Assembly: GCF_026151205.1 (NCBI RefSeq)
Contig: NC_087074.1
Span: forward strand, 9,217,726-9,281,725
Direction of reading: 5' to 3'
DNA: 64,000 nt
DNA from: Bolinopsis microptera
Taxonomy: Eukaryota; Ctenophora; Tentaculata; Lobata; Bolinopsidae
Made by a program: the position numbers and the translations under genes. The notes under the pieces are model-generated. The model worked only from the letters and a program-made list of their open reading frames with translations. It ran no database searches and was not told where the DNA came from. The first letter of the stretch is position 1; every line of letters starts with the position of its first letter. This document shows, piece after piece, positions 943 to 59,492 of this stretch.

Positions 943-3900
943 ATGTTAGTCTTAGTACTGCAATTACTGGTGACCACTGTAAAGAGTGACATGGTATGTG
1001 ACAGTGACGGTGTTAAATGTGTTAAAGACCCGGCTAATTGTGACTCCTCCGCTCCTACTGACTGTAATTATCTTCTCAAGTACAAGGCTGCCTCAGCAGA
1101 CACCACTAAGGTATGTAAAACATGTTGACATCAAATACACCTTCAAATGTTTTGAATAACTCAAACTCCCACTATACTAGCTTTATCCGAGTCTAATTAT
1201 ACAGTAAAACCACGAATTACCGAAAAACCCGATTCACTGCGGCCATTTCCTTCCCCCAAATGAGGTGTCAACGTACAGTACAATCAAAACCCCGATTTAC
1301 TGCAGCTGTCTCCTTCCCCCAAAACTCTGCGGTACATCAGGGTTTTACTGTAAACTGAATTTGAGTTTATCTTCAGATAGAGATATCAGGGAAACCCAGT
1401 AAGTTCAGCCTGACATCCTATCTAGAGAACATGTGGCTGGTATTTGGGTTTTCTCCCAGCAGTAGCGGAATGTCAGGTATAAATCTGTATGCTTGCCAGC
1501 TAGTCGGTGGCACTCAGTACGATGTCAGGAAGTTAAAAACTAATGGTTATAGTGGTGTAGACAAGTAAGTGATATTTCATTTCATTATTTAATTTCCAAC
1601 AATTCATCAAGTATAGTTTTTATCTTCGTTATTTTTTTCCGTGGTACTCACAACATTGAAAAGGTTTTATTTTGAAAGATTGATTTTTATTTGTTCTAAA
1701 TTGAGCTGTTCATGAACACACATCACCATTGCAAATATCCTTGGCAAAAATAACAATCCCAGCGCTGGATCGGCAATCGTTGCTAAAGGGGGAAGTGTGA
1801 GTGGAAGTAATCAGGACGACCTAATGTCATGTTCATACGAGATACTCAACTCAGAACTTCCTACTAGCAATCAATATCTCGTTAAAGCTATGGGTGATTA
1901 CTTTTACCATTTTTCAAAATACAGCTCAAAGCTGGCTTTTTCGTTATCATATTGCAGAGTATGTCAAGGCATATTCAAATTGAAAATTGCTGAAAAATAC
2001 AAGAAGTATTAGGAAAGTCCGATAAAATGCGTATCATTTGGTAAACCTGCCTGATCAGGTCCGATGGCTGGTGAAAACTCCATGTCAAAGCACAGAATGA
2101 CCCCAAAGAGAGGAACCCTGATGAAACTTCAGCAAGAGTTCATACCTCCCGTAGAATGTCCCGTGGTAAGATTTATTTTTAAATCATAAAATTATGAATT
2201 AGTATTTAATGAATATGTATTGGATATAATGAATAGCATAAGCTATATTTCTGATGAAATCGAATCAATGAAATCTTCAAAGAGCTGGTTTCTATTTATC
2301 ACGATATTTTCAGGGAGAAAAGGAAGTTAACAATGTTTGCCAGAAATGTCCAGCGGGAGACTATCAAGACCTGACAGGGCAAACTTCTTGCAAAACTTGT
2401 GACAGTGGTCATATCTCTGCTGAAGGATCTTCAAAGTGCACTGCCTGCAGCGTGGTAAATACCATAGTTCGAATTACCGTTTAAGAATGTCACAGTTACA
2501 GTAGAAGCTCAATTTGATGGTCTCTCTCTCTCTCTGTTTTGGTCAACGGTTTCTGGCCTCCTAGTGAAGAGGGAGGCCTTCTCGCCGTGCCCACAGAGTG
2601 TGACTCCTGCTAGCCACACTCCAGGACTCCCTAGAAGTATATACAAAAACATAGAATAATAGATATCAACGCAACAGACCTCTGGAGTCTCGAAGCTGTT
2701 ACTACCTTGCTCAGGGCAAACCCACTTCAGATGTTCTTCTTTGGCGGGCAGGCGAGGGACTTCCGAGCATGGTCCACACCTGAATATGTGTCACTATCTG
2801 GGATAGTCCTGTGTGGGTCTAGTGTATGATTGTTTATGAACCTTGGTGTATGTCCTAGATGCTTATCCAAATAGATCGTCTCTGTCAAACCTTGTTGACT
2901 GTTCCACGAATTTGATAATGTGGTCGAGTTTACTATTGATGAGTTCCTCAATTGTTAGGATGGGTTTACCAAATATCCTCATTCTAGTTGTCATCAGCTG
3001 GATGCATTCACATAGGAAGTGTTGTGATGTTTCTGCTTCCTGGGCAGTGTGAGAACTCACAGTCTTGTGTTTCGAAATTGGAGTTGTTTGCTACCGTCTG
3101 GAAGTATGCTAGTGGGCTGTGTCCTGATAGTAGCCATGTTAGCCATCTGATGTGAGTACCTGTGATGTTAATTTTCTTGTACCTGTTTTTGTTGAGGAAA
3201 AATGTTAGTGGGGTTTTTCCTTTATCACTGAGTGCCACCTGTTTATACTTCTTGATATGGAGATTGAAGAGGTAATCTTTTATTTGGGTGTTGATTATAG
3301 TTCTTTACCGTATACTCCTTCATGTCCTGGAACAAAGTTCTACTCGATGCGAAAACCTAGCGAGTTGAGTTGGTCTGAGATGTTCAGAACGAACCTGGAG
3401 TTAAAATTGGTGCTGTTAAGGGCTTTAAATGCAGCCTGGGAATCTGAGAGGAATTTATGATTGATTGAGATCCTAAGTTATCATTAGTCCAGAAACTTGC
3501 CATGTATAACGCAAATAGCGGGTACGATTTCCTCAATGAACCTGAAGAAGGAATATCTGTCCTGAATTGATACCATGTAACGTCGAGCTTAAAAATGAAT
3601 CAAAAGTTCGAGTAAATCGTTAAACGTTGTATGTCCTATTTGCATCCCCTAAGCATTGCATTGATGTTTATTCCTGGTCCGGTTAGCTTTGCGTCTCAGA
3701 AATAAAGAGGTCCACTATGCTTAAAGAGCTAAGCTGTCCACCAGGGTACTGTAGATCTAAGGGTTCCCCGTGTAATGGGGCAGGCTGTGATAAAGCATCT
3801 CTGCAGGATGTCCGAGATGAACTGATTCGAGTGTTGAGAACTTCCGCTGTAGAAACTGAATAGAACCAGTAAGGATGTCAGTCAAACTCTGCGGCTACTA

Positions 3901-5417
3901 GATGATTGTAGAGCGTCCAGTCACACTTCAATAAAGAGTGTGGCAAAGCTAACCCGGTCCCCTGAAAAGTGGTTATTGGAGGAAGAAGTTCCAGGAATTC
4001 TCGTTATCAGTGTGTTCTCGTAGTCAGAGTTGAAATCCCTAATTTTGTCTTATCACGAGCCTGTGTCTAGCGTGTGTCAGCCCTTACGCATTAGCTGTCT
4101 TAACTGAAAAGACCTGAAAAGTGGTTACTGGAGGGAGGAAGTGCCAAGACTACTCATTATCAGTGTGTCCTTGTAGTCAGGATGAGCGAATTGGAATCCC
4201 TAGCTCTGTGGTGGGTGACTTCGATGGGACCTGAAAGCTGAAAGAGAATTTCCTGGCGATTTAATAGCTCTTAGAGCTAGGTATCTGTGTCTAACGTATC
4301 GTCATTTGTGTGTGTACTATCTTGTAACCTGATATCTGAAAGAGAAATTTCCTGGTGCTTGGTAGCTGTTATTGTTGACTTCCTGGTTCCCATGGGAACT
4401 TTGAGTTGGCAAGTCCCAACCTTAGTACTCAACAAGAGAGCACACCACCCGTTAGTGCCAACCAGGCCACACCACGTGGAGGTTCGGAGAGGATTTCGTG
4501 ACCCACAAATTTGATGGTATTCAAATAATGGTTTAATTTTAAAATACTTTTCAAATTTTACAGATTACATATACAGCAATGAACTTTTTTTTAAATGAAT
4601 AAACGTACTGATAATGTAACATCTGTAAAATTTGATGGTGCATCATCAGTTCGTTGAATCTCCGAAGGACTCATTTTTATTAATCATAATATCTTCAGGG
4701 AGAAAAGGAAGTTAACAATGATTGCCAGAAATGTCCAGCGGGAGACTATCAAGACCTGACAGGGCAAACTTCTTGCAAAACTTGTGAAGAGAACCAATTC
4801 TCAGCAGAAGGTGGCTATCTATTTAAATTTTATGTATTTTAAATGGTTATATGTTATACTTTTTCAATTCAAGAATACAACATACTTTATGTGTGCCGGT
4901 ATACGCTTACAATCTATAATATTCTACTGTCAGCTGGGCAGACGCAGTGTGAGAAGTGTCCAGATAACACATTTTCTGAAGAAAAGGCTGATCAGTGCGT
5001 GGATTGTCCAACAGAAACTGAAACTAGTATCAGGGACAGTATGGAAAACAGGAACTTCGGGGAACTCCTTATTCAAAAATGCATAGGTATTTACCTTTTA
5101 TAATATTTATACTTTTAATTTGGTTCCTGCTATTTGAAATAAGTTGATTTTCCTCTGAAAATCTTCTTCCTGTAAATACAGTCGCCAGAGTTATATTCTA
5201 GATCAGCAATTTTACAGGAAACCGATTTCAAGCCACTCCTTTAATACACTTCTTTTGTACTATCATATTTATCTCTTGCGCAGACGATAACGAAGAAAGT
5301 AATGAAGGAGAAGGGGAGAAGAAGACGGACATGATTGTCGAGACTGTTACAATAGAAGTGCATCTAGAGATATTGCGACCTGGTTATTTATATTATCACT
5401 CTTTCCAGTTTGGATGA
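943..5417 (+). CDS. Secreted DOMON-like protein with ephrin-receptor-like cysteine repeats, 8 exons
   Basis: Spliced model: 943-1110, 1377-1564, 1763-1893, 2059-2165, 2314-2454, 4699-4810, 4934-5086 and 5284-5417. All junctions agree in phase, giving 377 residues. The first ~15 residues are a signal peptide (MLVLVLQLLVTTVKS). Residues ~35-195 resemble a DOMON/DoH fold as in ferric-reductase-like proteins: a 'WLVFGFSPSSSGM' strand, later 'SCSYEI', and 'SKHRMTP' near its end. Residues ~199-320 hold CxxC-type repeats ('CQKCPAGDYQD', 'CEKCPDNTFSEEKADQC') of the ephrin-receptor-like/TNFR-like kind. An acidic, lysine-rich tail follows, with no clear membrane helix. Exons 5 and 6 are near-identical duplicates. 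The donor of exon 3 (gtgatt) is the weakest site. Family knowledge suggests an extracellular binding protein; the ligand is unknown. Confidence 0.75.
2303..2399 (+). repeat. Exon 5 of the DOMON gene, duplicated at 4688-4785
   Basis: About 90 bases, from the end of the preceding intron through 'AAAACTTGTGA', recur at 4688-4785 with only one or two differences in the coding part (GTT versus GAT after AAC AAT; Val versus Asp). Both copies keep a working acceptor (TTTTCAG or TCTTCAG) and start in phase 0, so both can be spliced in frame. The two copies diverge abruptly afterwards: the first continues into a second CxxC unit and the second splices sooner. Confidence 0.85.
2510..3480 (-). mobile_element. 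LINE 3' remnant with RNase H domain, inside intron 5
   Basis: Reading the minus strand in several interrupted frames gives a decayed RNase H and C-terminal region of a non-LTR retrotransposon. Positions ~3465-3340 read SDSQAAFKALNS, then 'LNISDQLNSLGFRIE', a stop, and a 'VPGHEGVYG' stretch, which matches the RNase HI 'WVPGHxGxxGN' region. Positions ~3160-2870 read 'GHSPLAYFQTV' and then 'EAETSQHFLCECIQL', the HxxxC-type tail seen after RNase H in LINEs. Stops and frame changes make it a dead copy. It separates the duplicated exons 5 and 6 of the host gene. Confidence 0.75.
3958..4212. repeat. Direct repeat, two copies of ~95 bp
   Basis: The stretch starting 'cctgaaaagtggttattgga' at ~3961 recurs from ~4112 as 'cctgaaaagtggttactgga'. 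Both copies continue through 'atcagtgtgt' and 'gaatccct'. They are diverged by small indels. The surrounding intron (3480-4680) has no recognisable coding sequence. Confidence 0.6.
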
Positions 5418-26200: not shown

Positions 26201-29200
26201 ATATTGTTGATGTTTCGATGTTTACAGGGTCTATCTTGAAATTTTTTGGGTTGCAAATTGTCTCACATGTCGCGTATTTTCGAGTATCGAGACCTTGAAT
26301 GTATCCGAAACTTTCCAAACATTTTAAGAATGTTGATGTTTCCCAAAAGAGTGAGTTCATTTTAGAGAAGAAAGAAAGAGAGCAGTTGATTAATAATATA
26401 TATTAATAATTCTTCCGATAATAGGTTTGCAACTCTCTAATCATATCTTGAATGGACCGAATATTCGTCTCAATTTCAACTTCCTGCCAGAAATTAAATT
26501 TGAGTTTCTCTTTCCAGGTTAGAAGAGAAATACCACGCAGACAAAAATGAAGTTAACACCTTGTTTTCTGGAACCACTATTTTACAAACCAGACCCCCTC
26601 CTTCTGGACAAGACGATGCTGTGAGTTTAATTAATTAATTAGCTTGTTGTCTTGTTAATATCAATCGGCAACACTTGCTCAACTAACTTTTAATAACGGA
26701 TCAGTTTCCCCAAAACTGAAGAAATAAATCAAGTACAAAAGTTAACTGTTTATTAACAACCTTAATAATAACGATATGTCCTTTACAGGTGTACTGTTTG
26801 GTTACGAGAACAGGATTCCGTTCTAAAAAGGGGGAGACAGTCAAGTTCATGTTACATCCGGACAGAACACAAAAGTTCAAGTTCTACTCTGAAGCTTGGA
26901 CCTACATCAAGATTATGGCCTTTATAGGTCTAGGCGGCATGATATACCATATATACGACAGTATCAAGAACGATTATTCGGTCAATGATGCCGTACTTGG
27001 ATCTCTAGATTTGGTGTGTTTCATTAATTTGCAATAAACTTGCCACAAATAGGACAAAAATTTAGCTAAGATCGAATTAAAAATAAAAAATAAAATTATC
27101 TTATTTCAATTTAAACACCAACAGGACACACGAACTTATAATCATTTTAACGTCATGCAGATAACGATAATCATAGCCCCATCCCTCCCTCTGGCTCTCA
27201 GTATTGCAGTTTTCTACGCTATCAGACGTCTGAAACAGGGCAAAATCAACGTTTCCCTGCCTAATTCCATCAACATCGCTGGAAAAGTTAAGATGACGGT
27301 GTTCGATAAAACAGGTTAATTTTTTTATAGATGCGCCACAATATTATATTAATTAAAGGACTGATATACTGATCAAATATTGATTGAGTGGATAAATAAA
27401 ATATTTTCTATTACTTTTCATTCCGTGTTAGTATAGTGGTGAGTATACCCGCCTGTCACGCGGGTGACCAGGGTTCGATTCCCTGACATGGAGCTTCTTT
27501 TATGTAGCTTTGATAATTTGGTATCGGGTTACAAGTTCGTTAGTTCGAGCTCCGCTAGTGACATTTTTAAAGAGTGATCTACGAACTTTCTAAGTTTTTC
27601 CTTGTCATCACGGCCTCACGGGGTCGACTTAGCTGTTTGATCGTGAACACGTGATTGAGGGAACATGCCGAAGCGGTTTTTTTTGTAAACTTTATAATAT
27701 CTATTTATGATTTACACCTTTGTTAACTTAAGTTATCCCATATATCTCAGGAACACTAACAGAAGAAGGTTTAACATTGCAATGTGTTTTGTCGGCAACA
27801 GACGGGCACATCTCGGAGGAGCTAACAATAAACGTGCCTCAACAGATGAGGCTCGCTTTGGCTTCGTGCCATACTTTGTCTATAATAGACAACAAGATTT
27901 GTGGCGATCCTATCGACATAATAGGACAACAAACTAGTGGGTCAGTATTCGCATGTTTATATTTCGAACTATCAGCTCCCTGCCAGAGCTGGTTAAAATT
28001 GTGCGATATCCGTCGAAATGAGCACACCGCATTTATTTTAGCTGTCATTAAAAATTGTTGATATTTATTGTTTATACATTTGACGCTTTTATGATTTATA
28101 TTACAGCAAACGTTAACAAGCTAAATTATCGCTTCAGGTTTGAGTTCAGAGACCATGGATTTGAAGCTAATATCTTCAAAAATAAAGTGTCAGCAAGTAG
28201 TCTGGATCCTAAAACAGGCTCACGGTTAGGCCTAATCAAGACAGTACCGTTCGAATCACACCTCAAAAGAATGTCTGTGGTATGCGAAGTATCTAACGGT
28301 TCCGTGGTGGTCTTCTGTAAAGGTGAGTACAGTTCAGAGAGCTTTATTTTGAACTTTTGAAAGTTACACTTTGTTCCTCTATGCTATATAATTATACACT
28401 TTTAAAGTTTTCAATTTTACGTCAACAATCAACATGCACAGTTTCAAATGTGAACCAGAATGAAATATATTGCAAATCAAAATATTCTCGGAGATTAAGG
28501 AAGTAAATTATAATAGCATTAGAAAATCTAGAGAAGTTTCGTAATAGATTTAGCACAGTCTCTCTATCTCCTACTCATGAATCACAGAGCCAATATCAGA
28601 GGAATCGCCGGTAGAGAAGGAAACGTCAACTTCTGATGAATCCGAAATGAGCATCACGTCACCCTCGGCCCCGTCCTCTTTGTCTCATACTCCCATTCAG
28701 AGATACGGTAGTGAAGGAGGAAGTAGCTGGAGACGTTAGCCTCCTAAGTTGGAAATTGGAGCCCCCCATAGATATCAGGGCAGCTGGAGACAGCGTGGCT
28801 GGCAATATTCCAAGTAACTCTCACTGTTGGACCCTCTGTTTTATTGAAGAGGCTAACACTTTTAGTGAAGGTCTGATTGCCACAACCAGGAACATCAACA
28901 ACGAAATCTTCGTCTCCTGACGAAAGATCTTGACAACACCAACACGTCCCACAACCTGGCTTTTCTCCATTGTTTCTTTTTATATATAGACCACCAGGCA
29001 ATCTATTACACATGCCAGCATCGTCAGCGTTGTTGTCACTTTTCCATTTCCTGTCTTCATCATTCCAATGGTGACAAACCCAGTCTTCCTTTTCTCGATA
29101 AGAAGCGATATGAACACCACTGGTGACAGTCTGAAACAGGTTAGTACTTCCGATGTAAGTTCCATTCTGCAGAAAGAACTGCAAGTTACCTTGCAGGATC

Positions 29201-32200
29201 ATCCCTTCGTATGCAGGCTCACTTCCCCATCTCATGTTTATGCTGGGCTGGAAGTTGTCTCCCATCTTGTAGGCTAGTTCTGAGCGGTGCCAGTGGACAT
29301 CTTCAGAGGGAGTGTCAGTGAAAATGGTTTCGAACCAGCCTTCCCCGCAGGGTTGAAGGTTGCAGGTTTGGAATTCCTCGTTATCCCCCACACAGTTAGC
29401 TCCCCCATTAGTAGGGGCCGGGTTAGAGCAACTCCTGGTTCTGTTCTGAGCTCCTGTATTACACTGAGCTGCGCACTCAAACCATTCCCCATACTCACTC
29501 CGACACTCCAGCCTCCATCCACCGGACACTCTTCTGTGTTGCATTCCTGGGTCTCAGTGCTGTCTCCTTCACAGTCTGCTCCTCCTTCCTTTGGAGCGGG
29601 GTTGGTGCAAGTTCTGGATCTCGTTTTGATTCCTCCTCCGCAAACAGCTGAGCACTCAGACCAGTCTCCAAATTCACTCCATCCTCCTTCTACAGGGGTA
29701 GGAAATCCTATTGTGTGGCATGTTTGGCTCTCAGTGCTGTTTCCTTCACAGTCCGCTCCTCCTTTCCCTGGAGAAGGGTTGGTGCAAGTTCTCATTCTTA
29801 CCTGGATTCCTCCTCCGCAACCAACCAAGCACTCCGACCATTCTCCAAACTGACTCCAGTCTCCGTTTGTTGCAGAGCAGGAGTAGCCACACTTCTTCAG
29901 AACTCCCTCCAGTTTACTGCACCTCTTTTTCATCTTCTTCTTCAACTTGCCGTCTCCTGATTCACAGCCCAGAGAGGACTGGAAACCTCTCTTCAAACAT
30001 TTCGCACGGTACTGCTTTATCTTCTTGTTGAGACTTTTCTTTTTCAAAGGACATTCCTTTGAAGCAGCAAATACTAAAAGAGTAAGAAGGACGGCTAAGG
30101 TGGAGAAATGTTTCATGGTTCTGCCAACGATCGAATAAATTGAAATGACTCAATCGTCACTTTACTACCATGTTTATTGTAGATAATTTCTAAGTGGGTG
30201 TGGTAAACAATAAATTTGTTTATGACAGAGATAATTTGTTTATAATTGAGCCAGAGATATCCAACATGGCATCTAATCTAAAATATCCTATTAATTTGGT
30301 TAATTTCAATTTCACAGGAAAAATGGCTCTTACTATCGCGTTCCTGAACTGTAAATTATCCAATAAACCGACTTTCTACGGTCAAATAATTTGATCTTAG
30401 CGTTAACTTCGCCACTGACCAATAACTGTTCTAAACATCAGTTTAATAATGCTCTCCGCACAACTAACAGTAAATTGTGTCCCCACAATGATAACTCAGT
30501 CTCCACTCTCCACTCGTCATAACGTTTACATTAACCAATTACCACGGGTTCCACCACAGTTTTGACAGGCTAAGTAAGATGAGGCCGCGGATGGATGAGT
30601 GGTAGGAAATTTAGGGGGGGGGGGGGGGGGGGCCGGGGGGTTCACCCTGATTTTTTTTGTGAAACTTGGTTTCGAGATAGCAGTTGATCAACAAACTAGG
30701 ACCGATGACCGAACTTTTGAGGGGTCCCGGACCCCAACCGCCAAACGGTGCCCGCGGGGCAGCCACGCCCATATTTGGTCCAAATTAGGCCCAATTTAGC
30801 CAAATACCCTGAACTTGCCCAAAATCCAGATTTTAGGTGCTCTACTTGTAGCTAGTAGTCCCCTGAACTCGTATATGAATTTTTATCAAGATTGGACAAA
30901 AAATGACTGAGTTATGAGCCAAAAACCATATGACCATATTTGGGCATACGCACCAAATTTGATCGATTTTGGCCTATAAATTGGTTAAATATCAATATTT
31001 TTGAATGAAACCAACTTTATATGGAAGGTAAGCCTATACTACACATTCTCTATGATTATCAGCTCAGTATCTACCTAACTGTGGATTCTGTGTTCAAATA
31101 ATAGCAAAAATGAACAAAATCGCCTATATCTCAGTTCGCGATATTTGCAAAACTGATTTCGCTCAAAACAATAGAACTCAATAGGGTTTCAATATTTTTA
31201 CATGAAATTTTCAGAATCAACGTAGAATCGCATTTCGACCTTAAGTTTTGGGACAGAATTTTGAGTTAGGCCTTTAAAAAAATTTGGCGGCCAAATTCCA
31301 AATTTTGCAATGCGAAATTAACGCTCTGATAACGCTCCTTTCAACAGGTGCTCCTGAGCAGATAGTACTACACTGTGATCAGAGCACAATCCCGCAAGAA
31401 TTCTCCTCTAAACTGGACCACTTCTCTTCTCAAGGTAAACTGTAGATATAAGATCATTTGTTTTATGAATAATGTTACGAAAAATCTTATTAAGTATAAC
31501 TATAAGTCGGTTATGTAGGTTTATAACTCAAGTTTATCACTAGGGTATCGGATACTAGCGTTTGCCAGTAAGACCCTCCCTGAGGAGTGCAATGTAAGCT
31601 CCATTCCTCGTGATGAGCTGGAATCTGGACTCACATTCCTAGGATTCCTGGTGCTGGCTAACAGACTGAAACCAGAGACTCGGGTAGTGATGGATGAGCT
31701 CAAACGTGCAGGTATTGGAATTTCTGTCTTTTGTATGAATCTGGGATGAATGCTCGGTATAGGCAGTTGAGATATTGCTATGTTTTAGGACTGATCTACT
31801 ATTTATCTAGGCCTTGTATCTTGTTGTTGTATTACAGACACCGTCTATGATCACTAATTAATATGAAGTGGTCAATAATACATTTTCAATTTAAAAATCT
31901 CTACCAATGATTTTTACAAATTCAAGAAAATTATTGGAGCAAGGCCTTTTTACTGAAATGTTCTTCGAAAAGGAAAACTCATATCCAATTCTTTTAGAAA
32001 GAAACAGACCAAACTAAATAAATTTTAAAACTCGAGGCACTCTAAAATGATCCATGATTTAACATTATTGATTAATAGAAATAGTACAATAATAAGTTTA
32101 AACACGTAGTACTAGTAATAACACAAGATGAATTAGCATCGCTGATCCTTTTGTTAATCAGCATTCAGCGGTGTTCTTTTCATTAAATGAACTGTTAATT

Positions 32201-48181: not shown

Positions 48182-49260
<1,079 letters not shown>

Positions 49261-51895
49261 AGTATTCAGTGTTCTTCATGTGTTTGATAACATGGTAACA
49301 GCTACAAGTTGGTCGATTAATTACAACTTACTAGAAATCTAGCATATCCTTGTACATGCAAAGGAACGCTTCACCAGCACTTCATTTCTGAGCTTAAAGG
49401 CAACCCTTTCCTCCTGCGCAGGGGTTTGCCAGGACCCCAATACAGTCGTCATTAGTGGTACATTGGGCGTGCTCGACAACATTACCAGTGGCACTGATCT
49501 TACACCACGTCGAGCAGTCTGAGCAGAATCCTTCGTCCGGGTGAGGACACGTGGGCCCTGAGGTGGAATACAGTTAGATATTATACTTAATGTTATAAGG
49601 ACACGAGGCCCCTGAGGGGGAATACAGTTAGATATTATACTTAATGTTATAAGGACACGAGGCCCCTGAGGGGGAATACTGCTAGATATTATACTTATAA
49701 TTTCATGAGGACACGAGGCCCCTGAGAGGGAATACAGTAAGATATTATACTTAATGTTATAAGGACACGAGGCCCCTGAGGGGGAATACAGTTAGATATT
49801 ATACTTAATGTTATGAGGAAACGAGGCCCCTGAGGGGGAATACAGTTAGATATTATACTTAATGTTATAAGGACACGAGGCCCCTGAGGGGAAATACAGT
49901 TAGATGTTATACGTAATGTTATGGGGACACGAAGCCCCTGAGGGGGAATGCTGCTAGATATTATATTTAATGTTATGAGGACACGTGGCCCCTGAGGGGG
50001 AATACTGCTAGATATTATACTTAATGTTATAAGGACACGAGGCCCCTGAGGGAAAATACAGTTAGATATTATACTTAATGTTATAAGGACACGTGGCCCC
50101 TAAGGGGGAATACTGTTAGATATTATACTTAATGTTATAAGGACACGAGGCCCCTGAGGGGGAATACAGTTAGATATTATACTTAATGTTATAAGGACAC
50201 GAGGCCCCTGAGGGGAAATACAGTTAGATGTTATACGTAATGTTATGGGGACACGAAGCCCCTGAGGGGGAATACTGTTAGATATTATACTTAATGTTAT
50301 GAGGACACGTGGCCCCTGAGGGGGAATACTGCTAGATATTATACTTAATGTTATAAGGACACGAGGCCCCTGAGGGGAAATATAGTTAAATATTATACTT
50401 AATGTTATAAGGACACGTGGCCCCTAAGGGGGAATACTGTTAGATATTATACTTAATGTTATGAGGACTCGAGGACCCTGAGGGGGAATACAGTTAGATA
50501 TTATATTTAATGTTATGAGGACACAGGCCCCTGAGGGGGAATACTGCTAGATATTATACTTATAAAGTTATGAGAACACGAGGCCCCTGAGAGGGAATAC
50601 AGTTAGATATTATACTTAATGTTATACGGACACGAGGCCCCTGAGGGGGAATACAGTTAGATATTATACTTAATGTTATAAGGACACGAGGCCCCTGAGG
50701 GGGAATACAGTTAGATATTATACTTAATGTTATAAGGACACGAGGCCCCTGAGGGGGAATACTGTTAAATATTATACGTAATGTTATAATGACACGAGGC
50801 CCCTGAGGGGGAATACTGTTAGATATTATACTTAATGTTATGAGGACACGAAGCCCCTGAGGGGGAATACTGCTAGATATTATATTTAATGTTATGAGGA
50901 CACGTGGCCCCTGAGGGGGAATACTGCTAGATATTATACTTAATGTTATAAGGACACGAGGCCCCTGAGGGGGAATACAGTTAGATATTATACTTAATGT
51001 TATAAGGACACGTGGCCCCTGAGGGGGAATACTGCTAGATATTATACTTATAATTTCATGAGGACACGAGGCCCCTGAGAGGGAATACAGTTAGATATTA
51101 TACTTTATGTTATAAGGACACGAGCCCCCTGAGGGGGAATACTGTTAGAAATTATACTTAATGTTATGAGGACACGAGGCCCCTGAGGGGGAATACTGTT
51201 AGATATTATACTTAATGTTATGAGGACACAAGGCCCCTGAGGGGGAATACAGTTAGATATTATACTTAATGTTATAAGGACACGAGGCCCCTGAGGGGGA
51301 ATAGTGTTAGATATTATACTTAATGTTATGAGGACACGAGGATCTTGATGTTATGTTGTAATGATAATGTAGATTGAAGATGTTATGCCTAATGTTAAAA
51401 TTAAATCTGCGCTACAGGAATAAAACAAATTTTCCTGAGCAACAATTTCACGACCTTGTAGTGTGATTTGGTAACTTATAACACCGAAAACAGTAAACTT
51501 ATATACAGTAGTGAGATGCGTGACAGGTGAACTAGAAATATAATTTGTAGAGGGTACAAGAAATTGAAATTAAAATATCTCAAATTAAATATAATCAAAC
51601 GACAAACTAACCGTTGCATCCTTTCCAGCATGATCCACCGTAACAAGACCATGAACAGCCAGTATTCTGTTCGCACTGGTAACCATTACCGGAACCGAAC
51701 CAACAGATTGCTGGGGTACAGGTTTTGTTAAAGGTGTTAAACTATAATAGTGGCCATTCAAATTAATGTTTGTATAATTGGTGCACATCATGCGTATATT
51801 CAGTGCGAATATTTTGTGCATATTTAATTTTTAATAACAAATTTAAGAAATGCCACTTATAAGTTATAAAGTTCAGTTTATGGTTTAGTACCAGA
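49261..51895. repeat. Segmental duplication, block A (partner 55703-59488)
   Basis: The block starts 'agtattcagtgttcttcatg' at 49261 and at 55703, and runs through the terminal exon, the minisatellite, its right flank ('gaggatcttgatgttatgtt'), the preceding exon and the intron up to the 'ggtttagtaccag' donor. Same order and orientation in both. The copies differ by substitutions, by repeat number, and by a 2.1-kb insertion in the partner. Confidence 0.9.
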
Positions 51896-52785
51896 ACATT
51901 CAGCGCTGTTCATGCATTCCCTTGATTCCACTGCTTCACCACCACAATCTTCTCCACCATTAGCTGGAGGTGGGTTATTGCAGGTTTTGGACCGGGTCTG
52001 TGTCCCTTTACCACAACCTGCTGAGCAAGCACCCCAGTCGCTGTAGTCACTCCATCCTCCATCAACTGAAGCTGTGGTTTTAATTTAGTCAACAGAAAAA
52101 TAATCACTCAACTCCCTAATCCTTAAACAATGTGCAGTACAATTATCAAGTTGAATCATAGTGCAAAATTAAAAACCTACGGGCGAAATTAAAAGCCTGC
52201 AAGAGAAATCAAGAACATTTGGTGCTCATATTATGGGTATACTCAGTGCAAATGTTATGTGTATATTTAGTACTGCACATTTGATGTGCTCGTCCATATT
52301 TAACAACAAGGTTAAGAAATGCTACTTATAGAGTTTAGTAATAGTTTATGGTTAAGTACCAAGGCATTCAGCAATCATGCATTCCCTTGATTCCACTGCT
52401 TCACCATCACAATCTTCTCCACCATTAGCTGGAGGTGGGTTATTGCAGGTTTTGGACCGGGTCTGTGTCCCTTTTCCACAACCTGCTGAGCAAGCACCCC
52501 AGTCGCTGTAGTCACTCCACCCTCCATCAACTGAAAGTAATATGGTTTTAATTTAGTCAACAGAAAAATAATCACTCAACTCCCCACTTCATACTCCCTA
52601 AATAATTCAGTTTAACTTTAATTATTAAAGTTGAATCATTATATAAAACTTAAAGCCTGTGGGAGAAATTAAAAACTTTATCATACCTCCTACGGCACAT
52701 TTTTGTTCATCTTTTTACATTTTCCCGTATAATCTTCTGCACTTGCCAGACCAAGAGCGAGGATAACCAGAAGAGTCACTAACAT
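49394..52785 (-). CDS. Small secreted protein: two TSP1 modules and a cysteine-rich tail, 5 exons
   Basis: Exons: 52785-52719, 52530-52360, 52065-51892, 51710-51612, 49557-49394. All internal junctions are phase 1; 224 residues. The signal peptide is MLVTLLVILALGLASA. Residues 23-79 and 80-137 are near-identical TSP1 modules ('GGWSDYSDWGACSAGCGKG', 'NNPPPANGGEDC'). Residues 138-170 form a Trp/Cys-rich module ('CEQNTGCSWSCYGGSCWKGC'). Residues 171-224 form a terminal Cys module ('CPHPDEGFCSDCSTWC', 'NPCAGGKGCL'). The Cys spacing implies a disulfide-stabilised extracellular protein; no function can be named. The first donor (AAAAT|GTAAAA) is the weakest choice. The last intron (~2.05 kb) is almost wholly minisatellite. 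A truncated paralog lies at 55833-59301. Confidence 0.8.
49545..51345 (-). repeat. 54-bp minisatellite A: tandem copies of a 3' splice site, ~33 units
   Basis: The unit on the minus strand runs TATAATATCTAACTGTATT, then CCCCCTCAG, then GGGCCTCGTGTCC, then TTATAACATTAAG. Spacing is 54 bp in the sampled units (for example 49763 to 49817). The first unit is the genuine end of the last intron plus the first bases of the terminal exon, so the array starts exactly at the acceptor of 49557. The branch-like CTAAC lies ~16 bases before the AG. Some units read CTAACAG, adding an extra AG. It ends at 'gaggacacgaggatcttg' (~51332). Confidence 0.93.
52300..52600 (-). repeat. Tandem duplication of a TSP1 exon with flanking intron
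   Basis: Exon 52360-52530 and exon 51892-52065, with neighbouring intron sequence such as 'ttttaatttagtcaacagaa' and 'aaaataatcactcaactccc', are near-identical about 465 bp apart. The coding parts differ at a few sites, e.g. CDGEAVESRECMIAECLG versus CGGEAVESRECMNSAECSG. Confidence 0.88.
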
Positions 52786-54224: not shown

Positions 54225-54675
54225 TCTGTAAACAATTCCTTAACTATATCCTCCTTGTAACCAAAACAGAGGTGTTAAAATGAACTCTCTGATAATCAAA
54301 ACAAAGATGTTAAAATGAACTCTGTGCTCCCCAAAACTCTCTGCTCTAAACAATTCATACACTATCCTCCTTGTAACCAAAACAAAAGTGTTAAAACGAA
54401 CTCTCTGATTATCAAAACAGAGATGTTAAAATGAACTCTCTGCTCCCCAAAACTCTCTGCTCTAAACAATTCATACACTATCCTCCTTCTAATCAAAACA
54501 GAGGTGTTAAAATGAACCCTCTGATAATCAAAACAAAGATGTTAAAATGAACTATCTGCTCCCCAAAACTCCCTGCTCTAAACAATTCATACACTATCCT
54601 CCTTGTAACCAAAACAGAGATGTTAAAATAAAATAAACTCTCTGTTCCCCAAAACATAGGTGTTAAACTGAACTC
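54225..54675. repeat. ~120-bp tandem repeat, about 3.5 copies
   Basis: Higher-order unit containing 'aacaattcatacactatcct', 'aaccaaaacagaggtgttaa', 'aatgaactctctgataatca' and 'ctccccaaaactctctgctc'. Inside each unit a ~38-bp subunit ('caaaaca(a/g)agatgttaaaatgaac') is itself repeated. Confidence 0.9.
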
Positions 54676-55702: not shown

Positions 55703-56028
55703 ATTCAGTGTTCTTCATGTGTTTGATAACATTGTAACAGCTACAAGTTGGTCGATTAATTACAACTTACTAGAAATCTAGCATATCCTTGTACATGCAA
55801 AGGAACCCTTCACCAGCACTTCATTTCTGAGCCTACCAATCGCAGCCTTTTTCTCCTACGCAGGGGTTTGCCAGGATCCCAATACAGTCGTCATCAGTGC
55901 TACATGTGGCCTTCTCGTCAACAGAACCACTGGCACTGAGCCAACACCACGTCGTGCAGTCTGAGCAGAATCCTTCGTCCGGGTGAGGACACGCGGCCCC
56001 TGAGGGGGAATACTGTTAGATATTATAT

Positions 56029-58110
56029 CCACTGGCACTAGCGGGCTATATTTGCGCCAGTGGGACCGCACAGCCCGCTTGTTAAAAAGGCCTGATATTT
56101 CTCAGCCCGCTGATACAGCTCGCTGATATAGCCCACATGAAATTTTACTAGTAGCGATATAGCCCGGAGACCAAATATCAGTTTCACTTTATTTTGTGCC
56201 TGGTTACTCTAGTACTAGTAGCAGAGTGTAGTTGAGTGTGCACTTTGATTTCCACGATTTCTGACAACACAGGGTTGTTTGTTAGGTCATTCTAAACCAA
56301 AGTAGTTTAGGTACACAATTTGTTTCGCTAGAGACAACCCTACAGGGCAAATTTTCTAAGTTTTCGCTTTTCGGCTCCTGAAGGTCATAGAGACTGTTTT
56401 TTGGCTTAAAATTACCGCAATGGCCACAGTTATATACAACTTACAAATCAAATTTATACATCTAACCATCTCCTTTGTTGCTTACATCTCGTTAAAGTGA
56501 ATTCTGCTACCTCCACTCTAGCTCCTTTTAGCAATCTCTGAATGCTACTTCCTGCTCTATCTAGCTTCCACCAACACCCATTAATTGTTGTTCAGCTATC
56601 ACCAGCACTTTCAAATTCTAGCACTTAATCCAGCAACCTCAGACTACTTTCTGCTCTATCCAGCTAACACTAGAAAACGGTTTACGGTACCCACAAATTT
56701 TAGCTTCTTCTAGCTACTTCGGGCTACATCCATCCTCATTCAGTTGGTTGAGCTGAGCACTCTCAAATTCTATCTGTTTTTGCCTAATTCAGGCTACCTC
56801 CAGGCTAGCAGCTAGAAGTTGAGGGTGCTTGCGATATCTGGATATAGCATAACGTAGTCCGAGTTTTATGGATAGGGCTAGAATTTGCAGGTGCTAGCGG
56901 TAGCTTAACAACAATTAGTGGGTGTTGGCGGAAGCTAGATAGAGCAGGAAGTAGCATTCAGAATTTGCTAGAAATAGCAGGTTTCCTCTTCCTCAATGAG
57001 CTGGAAATTGTTGAATGCAGCCGAGGCAGCCGTAAAGAGCCAAAATAAATTGTTGCTGGTGGTGTTATAAAAGGCAAGAGGTAACTTTAAGTTAAGCGTG
57101 CTAGAAAGAGCAGAAGTTGAAGGGGCCAGGCGGCCTTGCAGTAGTAGCTAAATAGATGTAGCCGAATTCAGAGGTTGCTAGAAAGAGCTACAATTATAAC
57201 GTGTTGGCATGGTAGCTGGGTAGAATGGGCATGGCATGGAGGTAGCAGAATTAAAGGTAGCTAGAAGTAGATTCTACTTCATGAGGTGGGATTGAAGTTG
57301 ATTAGCCATAATAGTCAAACAGTACTGGAGAGAGCCCAACTTGTGGTAGCTATAACGAGATAGTTATATATGTTCATGAATAAATTTGGGGATTGAAGTA
57401 GTTTGAAGTAACCAGAGAGATGGTTAGATGTTAGGTATACATTTGGGGATAAGATAAGATAGCTGGAAGGAGCTTCTGAAACTGAATTGTGTTGCTCCAT
57501 AATTCATAAATATTATCTGATTATTGTGTTCATGCTGAAAATTTTGCTGTGCTGCAAGTAAAGTGTATGTAAGAATTTTTTAGCCAGGCCCGGGATACCA
57601 AAATTAAGTACATGTTTGATGTTACTATTTTAGGATGCACGAATGTTAAAACTGTTTTTAATGAATATCTCCAAAACTAAGCACTATAAACCCTATGTTA
57701 CTTTATAGCTTGTATGTAAATGTGGCCTTTCCAGTTAGTTTGAGCTAAAAGAGAGGCCCCTACAACGTTCAGAAGCCGAGATACAAAAGTCATATTATAT
57801 TAGCGCCTGAGGGTAATTTAGAAACTTCCCCCCTAGGGTTGGAACTAATGATAGAAATTGCGTACCTTATCAATTCTGATCCATAATGACCTTACAAAGG
57901 ACCTGGTTCATAGAAAAGTTGTAGACACCAAACTGCATACTCGATTTCAATTCACTTCTAGAGTACTTTTTTTCACTCGCCCAAGTGAAAATCAGTTTTC
58001 CTGGATTTTTTCCAAAAGTAAGCATTTTTGGCCTTTATGACCTTTAAAGTGTCAATATAAACATGTGCATTGCAGTCATTTTAAGCCAAACTTTGAGTCT
58101 CTAAGACCTT
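56029..58110. mobile_element. 2.1-kb insertion in the splice-site array, with fold-back arms
   Basis: The array unit breaks after 'gttagatattat' and resumes at 58113 with 'gttagatatcat', so ~2.08 kb of unrelated sequence lies inside one unit. Within it, ~56533-56640 and ~56878-56985 are imperfect inverted repeats ('acttcctgctctatctagct' and complement), giving a ~450-bp fold-back rich in 'agctag' motifs. No coding frame is recognised. Terminal repeats of the whole insertion are not evident. Confidence 0.6.
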
Positions 58111-59012
58111 CACAGTTAGATATCATACTCAATGTTGTGAGGACACGAGGCCCCTGAGGGGAAATACAGTTAGATATTATACTTAATGTTATGAGGACAC
58201 GAGGCCCCTGAAGTGGAATACAGTTAGATGTTATACGTAATGTTATGAGGACACGAGGCCCCTGAAGTGGAATACAGTTAGATGTTATACGTAATGTTAT
58301 AAGGACACGAGGCCCCTGAGGGGAAATACAGTTAGATATTATACTTAATGTTATAAGGACACGTGGCCCCTAAGGGGGAATACTGTTAGATATTATACTT
58401 AATGTTATAAGGACACGAGGCCCCTGAGGGGGAATACTGTTAGATATTATACTTAATGTTATAAGGACACGAGGCCCCTGAGGGGGAATACTGTTAGATA
58501 TTATACTTATTGTTATAAGGACACGAGGCCCCTGAGGGGGAATACTGTTAGATATTATACTTAATGTTATAAGGACACGAGGCCCCTGAAGTGGAATACA
58601 GTTAGATGTTATACGTAATGTTATGAGGACACGAGGCCCCTGAAGTGGAATACAGTTAGATGTTATACGTAATGTTATGAGGACACGAGGCCCCTGAGGG
58701 GGAATACTGTTAGATATTATACTTAATGTTATAAGGACACGAGGCCCCTGAGGGGGAATACAGTTAGATATTATACTTAATGTTATGAGGACACGAGGCC
58801 CCTGAGGGGGAATACTGTTAGATATTATACTTAATGTTATAAGGACACGAGGCCCCTGAGGGGGAATACAGTTAGATATTATACTTAATGTTATAAGGAC
58901 ACGAGGCCCCTGAAGTGGAATACAGTTAGATGTTATACGTAATGTTATGAGGACACAAGGCCCCTGAAGTGGAATACAGTTAGATGTTATACTTAATGTT
59001 ATGAGGACACGA
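58107..59012 (-). repeat. 54-bp minisatellite B: splice-site array of the paralog, ~16 units
   Basis: Same 54-bp unit and orientation as array A, ending with the same flank ('gaggacacgaggatcttg'). A recurring variant here has 'cctgaagtggaatacagtta' in place of 'cctgagggggaatac', which weakens the pyrimidine run on the minus strand. A single detached unit remains next to the terminal exon at 55985-56028, before the insertion. Confidence 0.93.
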
Positions 59013-59492
59013 GGATCTTGATGTTATGTTGTAATGATAATGCAGATTGTTGCTGTTATGCCTAATGTTAATATTTGAGCTGCGCTACAGGAATAAAATA
59101 AAATTTCCTGAACAACAATTTCACGACCTTGTAGTGTGATTTGGTAACTTATAACACCGCAAAGAGATTGAAATTAAAATATCTCAAATTAAATATCATC
59201 AAACTAACCGTTGCATCCTCTCCAGCAATGTCCACCTCGACAAGACCATGAACAGGCAGTGCTCGTGTCGCACAGGTAGCTTTCACCCCACGCACAGATT
59301 CCTGGGGTACAAGTTTTGTTAAAGGTGTTTAACTATGGTGGCCATTCAAATTAATGTATTGTATATTTGGTGCACATCATGCGTATATTCAGTGCGAATA
59401 TTTTGTGCATATTTAATTTTTAACAACAAATTTAAAAAATGCCACTTATAAGTTATAAAGTTTAGTTTATGGTTTAGTACCAGAGCATATAT

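Follow-up and report, generated by a model that had tools for sequence, protein, structure and literature searches.

How does a transcript reach its last exon when dozens of near-identical 3' splice sites precede the genuine one? This question is raised by a 54-bp minisatellite in the last intron of a predicted gene (gene 1) of Bolinopsis microptera, found in the 64-kb stretch of DNA that we analysed (the window). The minisatellite, array 1, occupies 49544-51341 on the minus strand (period 54, 33.2 copies, 90% match in Tandem Repeats Finder; array length as in the assembly) and was characterised by repeat finding, unit alignment and an acceptor matrix. Its unit joins 41 bp from the end of the intron to 13 bp from the start of the exon. 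On the minus strand, a typical unit reads TCATAACATTAAGTATAATATCTAAC, then a pyrimidine stretch to CCCCCTCAG, then GGGCCTCGTGTCC; that is, a branch-like motif, pyrimidines, YAG and the first 13 nt of exon 5. The preliminary description of this DNA had placed CTAAC in each unit; this motif is present in 22 of the 33 units, while the others carry CTAGC (8), TTAAC (2) or another sequence (1). Some units are 55 or 56 bp long and break the frame. As in the mirage minisatellites of lancelets, which are compared below, the tandem repeats span an intron/exon boundary, here that of intron 4 and exon 5. The final copy continues into exon 5 and carries the presumed true acceptor, whose AG ends at 49558, and the copies before it supply 32 decoy acceptors, of which the first has its last intron base at 51291 and the last at 49612. 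Allowing two mismatches at most, the junction motif CAGGGSCYDCGTGTCC occurs 49 times in the window against an expectation of 0.03, and 32 of the 49 matches fall in array 1, the true acceptor counted and one unit being missed by the pattern. Another tandem repeat of the window, at 54247-54629 (116 bp, 3.3 copies), has no strong acceptor-like signal.

Gene 1, as predicted from sequence, has five exons on the minus strand that together form a single frame of 675 nt (224 residues), and every intron is in phase 1. Exon 1 (52719-52785) encodes a signal peptide beginning MLVTLLVILALGLASA, and its donor was chosen as the site that keeps the frame. Exons 2 (52360-52530) and 3 (51892-52065) each encode a TSP1 domain, according to Pfam and the frame. 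Exon 4 (51612-51710), placed by frame, encodes cysteine-rich module A; it is in phase 1 at both ends and has the donor G|GTTAGT. The coding part of exon 5, the last exon (49394-49557), encodes cysteine-rich module B and ends in TAA, and is indicated by frame and cysteine conservation. A poly(A)-signal-like hexamer, AATAAA, lies 276 nt beyond the stop (49113-49118), and slightly downstream of the gene the dinucleotide GA is repeated about 192 times almost perfectly (48183-48566). Intron 4 spans 51611-49558, and the distance from its donor is 321 nt for the first decoy and 2,054 nt for the true acceptor. Thus the predicted protein has a signal peptide, two TSP1 domains and two cysteine-rich modules. 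In Pfam, two TSP_1 domains were recovered (E 9.7e-22) with a hand-joined protein that is one residue longer at the first junction, whereas modules A and B matched no Pfam family, and one hand-made family query of the cysteine modules matched no solved structure. A further gene for a secreted TSP1 protein lies at 28744-30149, and part of it has 184 genome matches, which indicates that TSP1 exons are very numerous in this genome. The splice junctions of gene 1 are predictions from frame and splice signals. They place an apparently authentic boundary at the edge of array 1, where the phases agree and the five-exon frame is open. The proposal that the array arose by repeated duplication of an intron-exon junction is borne out here, as the junction is in the correct phase and adjoins the terminal exon that closes this frame.

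We scored acceptors with a generic vertebrate matrix, which is no more than a rough guide in the Bolinopsis genome. With this matrix, the gene strand of array 1 contains exactly 33 sites above 4 bits, namely the 32 decoys and the true acceptor. All 33 exceed 7.5 bits, compared with a density elsewhere in the window of about 2.8 per 1.8 kb. The units thus carry splice signals, as judged by this generic matrix, and the earlier count of about 33 tandem 3' splice sites upstream of the terminal exon agrees with both the 33.2 copies and the 33 sites. On the same generic matrix the true acceptor scores 7.56 bits and is outscored by all 32 decoys. Absolute scores mean little here, because the other three acceptors of gene 1 score just 3.8, 0.1 and 4.3 bits. 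A hairpin (CCCC-UCA-GGGG) that would mask the decoys was also considered and was rejected, as the true acceptor of gene 2, a tandem paralogue described below, folds likewise and one decoy does not. When six 47-nt stretches were folded, two decoys formed the hairpin, and the z-scores ranged from -1.44 to 0.61.

What would a decoy produce? It had been proposed that each decoy stops within its own unit. Of the 32 gene 1 decoys, 27 do so when exon 4 is joined to them in phase 1, while decoys 5, 14, 15, 29 and 30 read beyond their own unit because of 55/56-bp units or an altered stop. In-unit stops were also found at all 16 decoys of gene 2 and at two of three decoys of a copy on contig C10 (L015), again from exon 4 in phase 1. 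The usual decoy-encoded tail in these three copies is GASCPYNIKYNI followed by the stop, and decoy use would be predicted to cut the protein after module A plus this 12-residue tail. Use of a decoy merely lengthens the last exon and therefore the stop has no later junction. A stop without a downstream exon junction is not expected to elicit exon-junction-dependent decay, and poison splicing coupled to such decay would demand a junction after the premature stop, where the gene model has none. The long 3' end left by decoy use could matter in other ways. Simple arithmetic shows that if acceptors are tried from 5' to 3', use of each decoy above about 2% leaves under half of the transcripts intact.

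The same unit is found in relatives of gene 1. Gene 2 carries array 2 (58112-59014, minus strand; 16.7 copies, 16 decoys), which was detected by repeat finding and is absent from the preliminary description. Its module A exon (59209-59301, minus strand) was identified by homology to gene 1, and its open last exon, encoding module B (55833-55999, minus strand), by homology and frame. Gene 2 looks truncated at its 5' side because homology to gene 1 ends just upstream of module A, at the end of exon 3; within the window, TSP1 exons of the gene 1 type belong to gene 1 only. An inverted-repeat transposable element is inserted between array 2 and the last exon of gene 2. Part of this high-copy element, with approximate ends, lies at 56200-58080 (minus strand); it has 513 genome matches and, among the matches listed, occurs on contigs C1 to C13. 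The sequence ATATCTAAC stands on both sides of this part and may be a target duplication.

We searched the Bolinopsis microptera assembly (264.65 Mb, 232 contigs) with a two-unit query. Among the best candidates scored, 29 matches were found, all at loci of this family. This agrees with the preliminary description, for which occurrence of the unit at unrelated sites would have made its splice-site match incidental, and the idea that the array is part of a dispersed repeat was rejected on the same best candidates. The copies form a series of 32 decoys in gene 1, 16 in gene 2, about four units in L015 (C10, 2.22 Mb) and about five on contig C53. The true acceptor of L015 has lost its pyrimidine tract. 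Around module A, C53 and the C10 locus share 98% identity across 565 bp, whereas identity falls to 81-84%, with numerous gaps, in the region of the array and last exon, near the contig end. It is probably an error-rich haplotig of the C10 locus and possibly a separate copy, and the difference in unit number (about four against about five) is to be read with both options in mind; a second haplotype of gene 1 was not found. Provided that both exons are parts of a single gene, the intron between modules A and B is about 15 kb in C10 (2222957-2237895) and about 0.45 kb in C53 (40323-40774), a large insertion difference.

Two further near paralogues, L016 and L017, are pseudogene copies with a stop within each last-exon match of the genome search. 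They have one acceptor and no array, and the flanking intron is also missing, so the absence of the array could be a secondary loss. L016 also contains a very recent 2-kb tandem duplication (1-1989 and 2612-4600, 99.95% identity) that includes a module A copy. In the distant homologues L041, L042, L044 and L024 the corresponding intron ends in a single acceptor, with no acceptor array in it even at a low threshold, and L038 has no intron at this position. The left junction of the array, ATCAAGATCCTCGTGTCC, is common to gene 1, gene 2 and L015. Since the arrays have this junction in common, a single birth followed by expansion is the simplest history.

A second, unrelated array was found at a distant relative, L024/L045 (C1, 16.67 Mb). 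It lies at 6441-6834 of L045 (C1, about 16.6744-16.6748 Mb), has periods of 29, 50 and 80 bp and is made of TTAAC, TTGTGTTTCTCCAG and GTGTATCTTGACAG, the same 3' splice junction design as in array 1. It adjoins an open exon, which has GTGTATCTCGACAGTGGGTCG at its start and is followed by a GTAAGT donor, and the phases of this exon, by reading, fit those of the surrounding exons. Ten acceptors in the array exceed 10 bits on the generic vertebrate matrix; nine of them lead to a stop before the GTAAGT donor, and just the last opens the exon. No Pfam family was matched at its cut-off and no paralogue was found, so the exon is placed by frame and splice signals. In a survey for mirages (a spaced sample of 10 x 10 kb together with the window and the loci numbered L015 and above; 290 kb), 27 arrays were recorded, many from overlapping loci of identical places. 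Outside the 54-bp unit, four arrays were read and the others were judged on score alone; L024/L045 was accepted as a mirage, and the arrays of L056, L048 and L017 were not. The survey gives no genome-wide rate of mirages because L024/L045 was reached via homology and not via the sample.

Three unit types are common to arrays 1 and 2, and units 17-22 of array 1 resemble units 23-28 by reading; the similarity at lag 6 was equalled in 70 of 2000 shuffles. Some changes occur only in the true unit of gene 1, whose mean identity is 0.905, against 0.914 within the array. We consider it likely that array 1 is a tolerated minisatellite of the mirage type, grown by turnover, with splicing mainly to the exon-proximal acceptor. 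According to this explanation, the intron end and exon start (41 and 13 bp) would have been duplicated in tandem in the ancestor of the paralogues, and unequal exchange or slippage, including the duplication of blocks several units long, would then have driven the growth and turnover of the array. The coding sequence would be untouched because copies join on the intron side and the genuine acceptor stays last, beside the exon. Tolerance would need a positional rule, since every decoy outscores the true acceptor on the generic matrix. The true acceptor would probably be chosen from the exon side, where signals of the exon and of polyadenylation define the terminal exon, and splicing would at most leak into decoys, which would yield the protein ending after module A and the 12-residue tail.

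The preliminary description raised a splicing delay, truncated proteins and competition between copies as possible effects of the array; a role in truncating the protein is possible. It is unlikely, in our judgement, that the array works in the sense that meaningful decoy use decides how much secreted protein is full-length and how much is truncated, with copy number tuning the proportion. The truncated product would consist of the signal peptide, two TSP1 domains, module A and GASCPYNIKYNI, and exon-junction-dependent decay of its message would not be expected. Such a function would accord with the higher generic-matrix scores of the decoys, with the in-unit stops (27/32 in gene 1, 16/16 in gene 2) and with the conservation of the AG (48/48) and the stop triplet (47/48) in the 48 full decoy units of genes 1 and 2, the two true-acceptor units, L015 and C53 being left out of these counts. 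Intronic minisatellites of another design are tied to alternative splicing in C. elegans (PMC4039745). However, 132 of 2592 cells vary in the 48 decoy units and 22 of the 54 columns are invariant anyway, so that two invariant columns would be drawn with a probability of 0.16 and selection on the decoy AG is indistinguishable from chance. Moreover, 8 of the 48 units have G in place of the branch-like A, five gene 1 decoys read out of their unit, and normal mRNA is reported for lancelet mirages. A copy-number dial, in which equal acceptors set the proportion of full-length to module A-cut TSP1/cysteine protein and the ratio varies among paralogues and individuals because copy number is unstable, the message of the cut form avoiding junction-dependent decay, we regard as improbable. 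If it were true, ctenophores would have built such dials repeatedly by junction duplication, given two unrelated arrays of this design in a single genome.

An equally improbable reading is that the expansion is damaging: genes 1 and 2 would be crippled by the array and drifting to pseudogenes, and their similarity in frame would reflect recent duplication. The truncation and splitting of gene 2, the lost pyrimidine tract of the C10 copy and the two pseudogene paralogues would suit this reading, as would the excess of dN over dS in the last exon (0.171 and 0.060 for genes 1 and 2; 0.194 and 0.058 for gene 1 and L015; 0.113 and 0.091 for gene 2 and L015). Yet gene 1 is open through five exons (675 nt), both pseudogenes are array-less copies, and among the three open copies 20 of 53 last-exon residues vary but none of the eight cysteines (P=0.016). 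The last exon thus combines fast amino-acid change with a kept cysteine scaffold, the number of sites being too small for a conclusive test. That the array codes for 18-residue repeats in another frame, as part of an exon, is hardly credible. The unit length is divisible by 3, and one frame stays open for 176 residues of array 1 and 217 of array 2, but this frame differs from the exon 4 phase 1 frame at most decoys and is broken by the 55/56-bp units in array 1; a protein-coding repeat was rejected as being in the wrong frame.

If the mRNA is normal, as the tolerated minisatellite predicts, then 32 near-identical acceptors are ignored by position and not by local sequence, and the locus would be a natural ruler for 3' splice-site choice that sets first-come selection against exon-side definition. 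A comparison series is present in the same genome (no array, about four units, 16 decoys), with relatives that are damaged by stops, a lost pyrimidine tract or 5' truncation.

How does array 1 compare with known systems? NAGNAG and other tandem alternative acceptors give one exon several possible acceptors; NAGNAG sites are adjacent AGs, whereas array 1 holds dozens of complete 54-bp acceptor regions. CeRep25B intronic minisatellites are associated with multiple alternative splicing genes in C. elegans (PMC4039745). These and the ABCA7 VNTR (PMC5954066), like array 1, are intronic minisatellites near splicing decisions, but the Bolinopsis unit differs from both in that it is itself the acceptor junction of the exon beside it. 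Tandem duplication of splice signals also underlies intron gain in the Rogers model and in Zhuo et al. 2007, and likewise human repeats in segmental duplications (PMC2812944) and potato RdRp (PMC4974935). These intron-gain systems create a new intron, whereas in Bolinopsis an old intron was lengthened and its acceptor multiplied, and the gene 1 model needs no new intron between repeat copies.

The closest likeness is to the mirage minisatellites of lancelets, found in Adh3 and the globins BflGb6 and BflGb9 (PMC3087553) and also in troponin C and PGBD5 (PMC3902484). The preliminary description knew of no described system of this kind, but the lancelet mirages have the same architecture (PMC3087553). 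Like array 1, they are tandem duplications across an intron/exon boundary with splice signals in many units and the authentic boundary kept, and BflGb6, like array 1, repeats an intron 3' end with an exon 5' part. Splicing is reported or suggested to be undisturbed in them (PMC3087553, PMC3902484). Haplotypes of BflGb6 have 6 and 3 units of 150-160 bp and Adh3 has units of 10-72 bp, compared with a 54-bp unit in 33 and 16 copies in Bolinopsis. Among the results listed from the open-licence literature, no mirage outside lancelets appeared. The Bolinopsis system differs in phylum and in the position of its array, in the last intron before a terminal exon. It also comprises three loci with an array, a probable haplotig and relatives that have none. 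The class has already been described in lancelets and apparently extends here to a new phylum, Ctenophora. If mirages arise in so distant an animal phylum, as this locus suggests, junction duplication may be a general, overlooked class of mutation.
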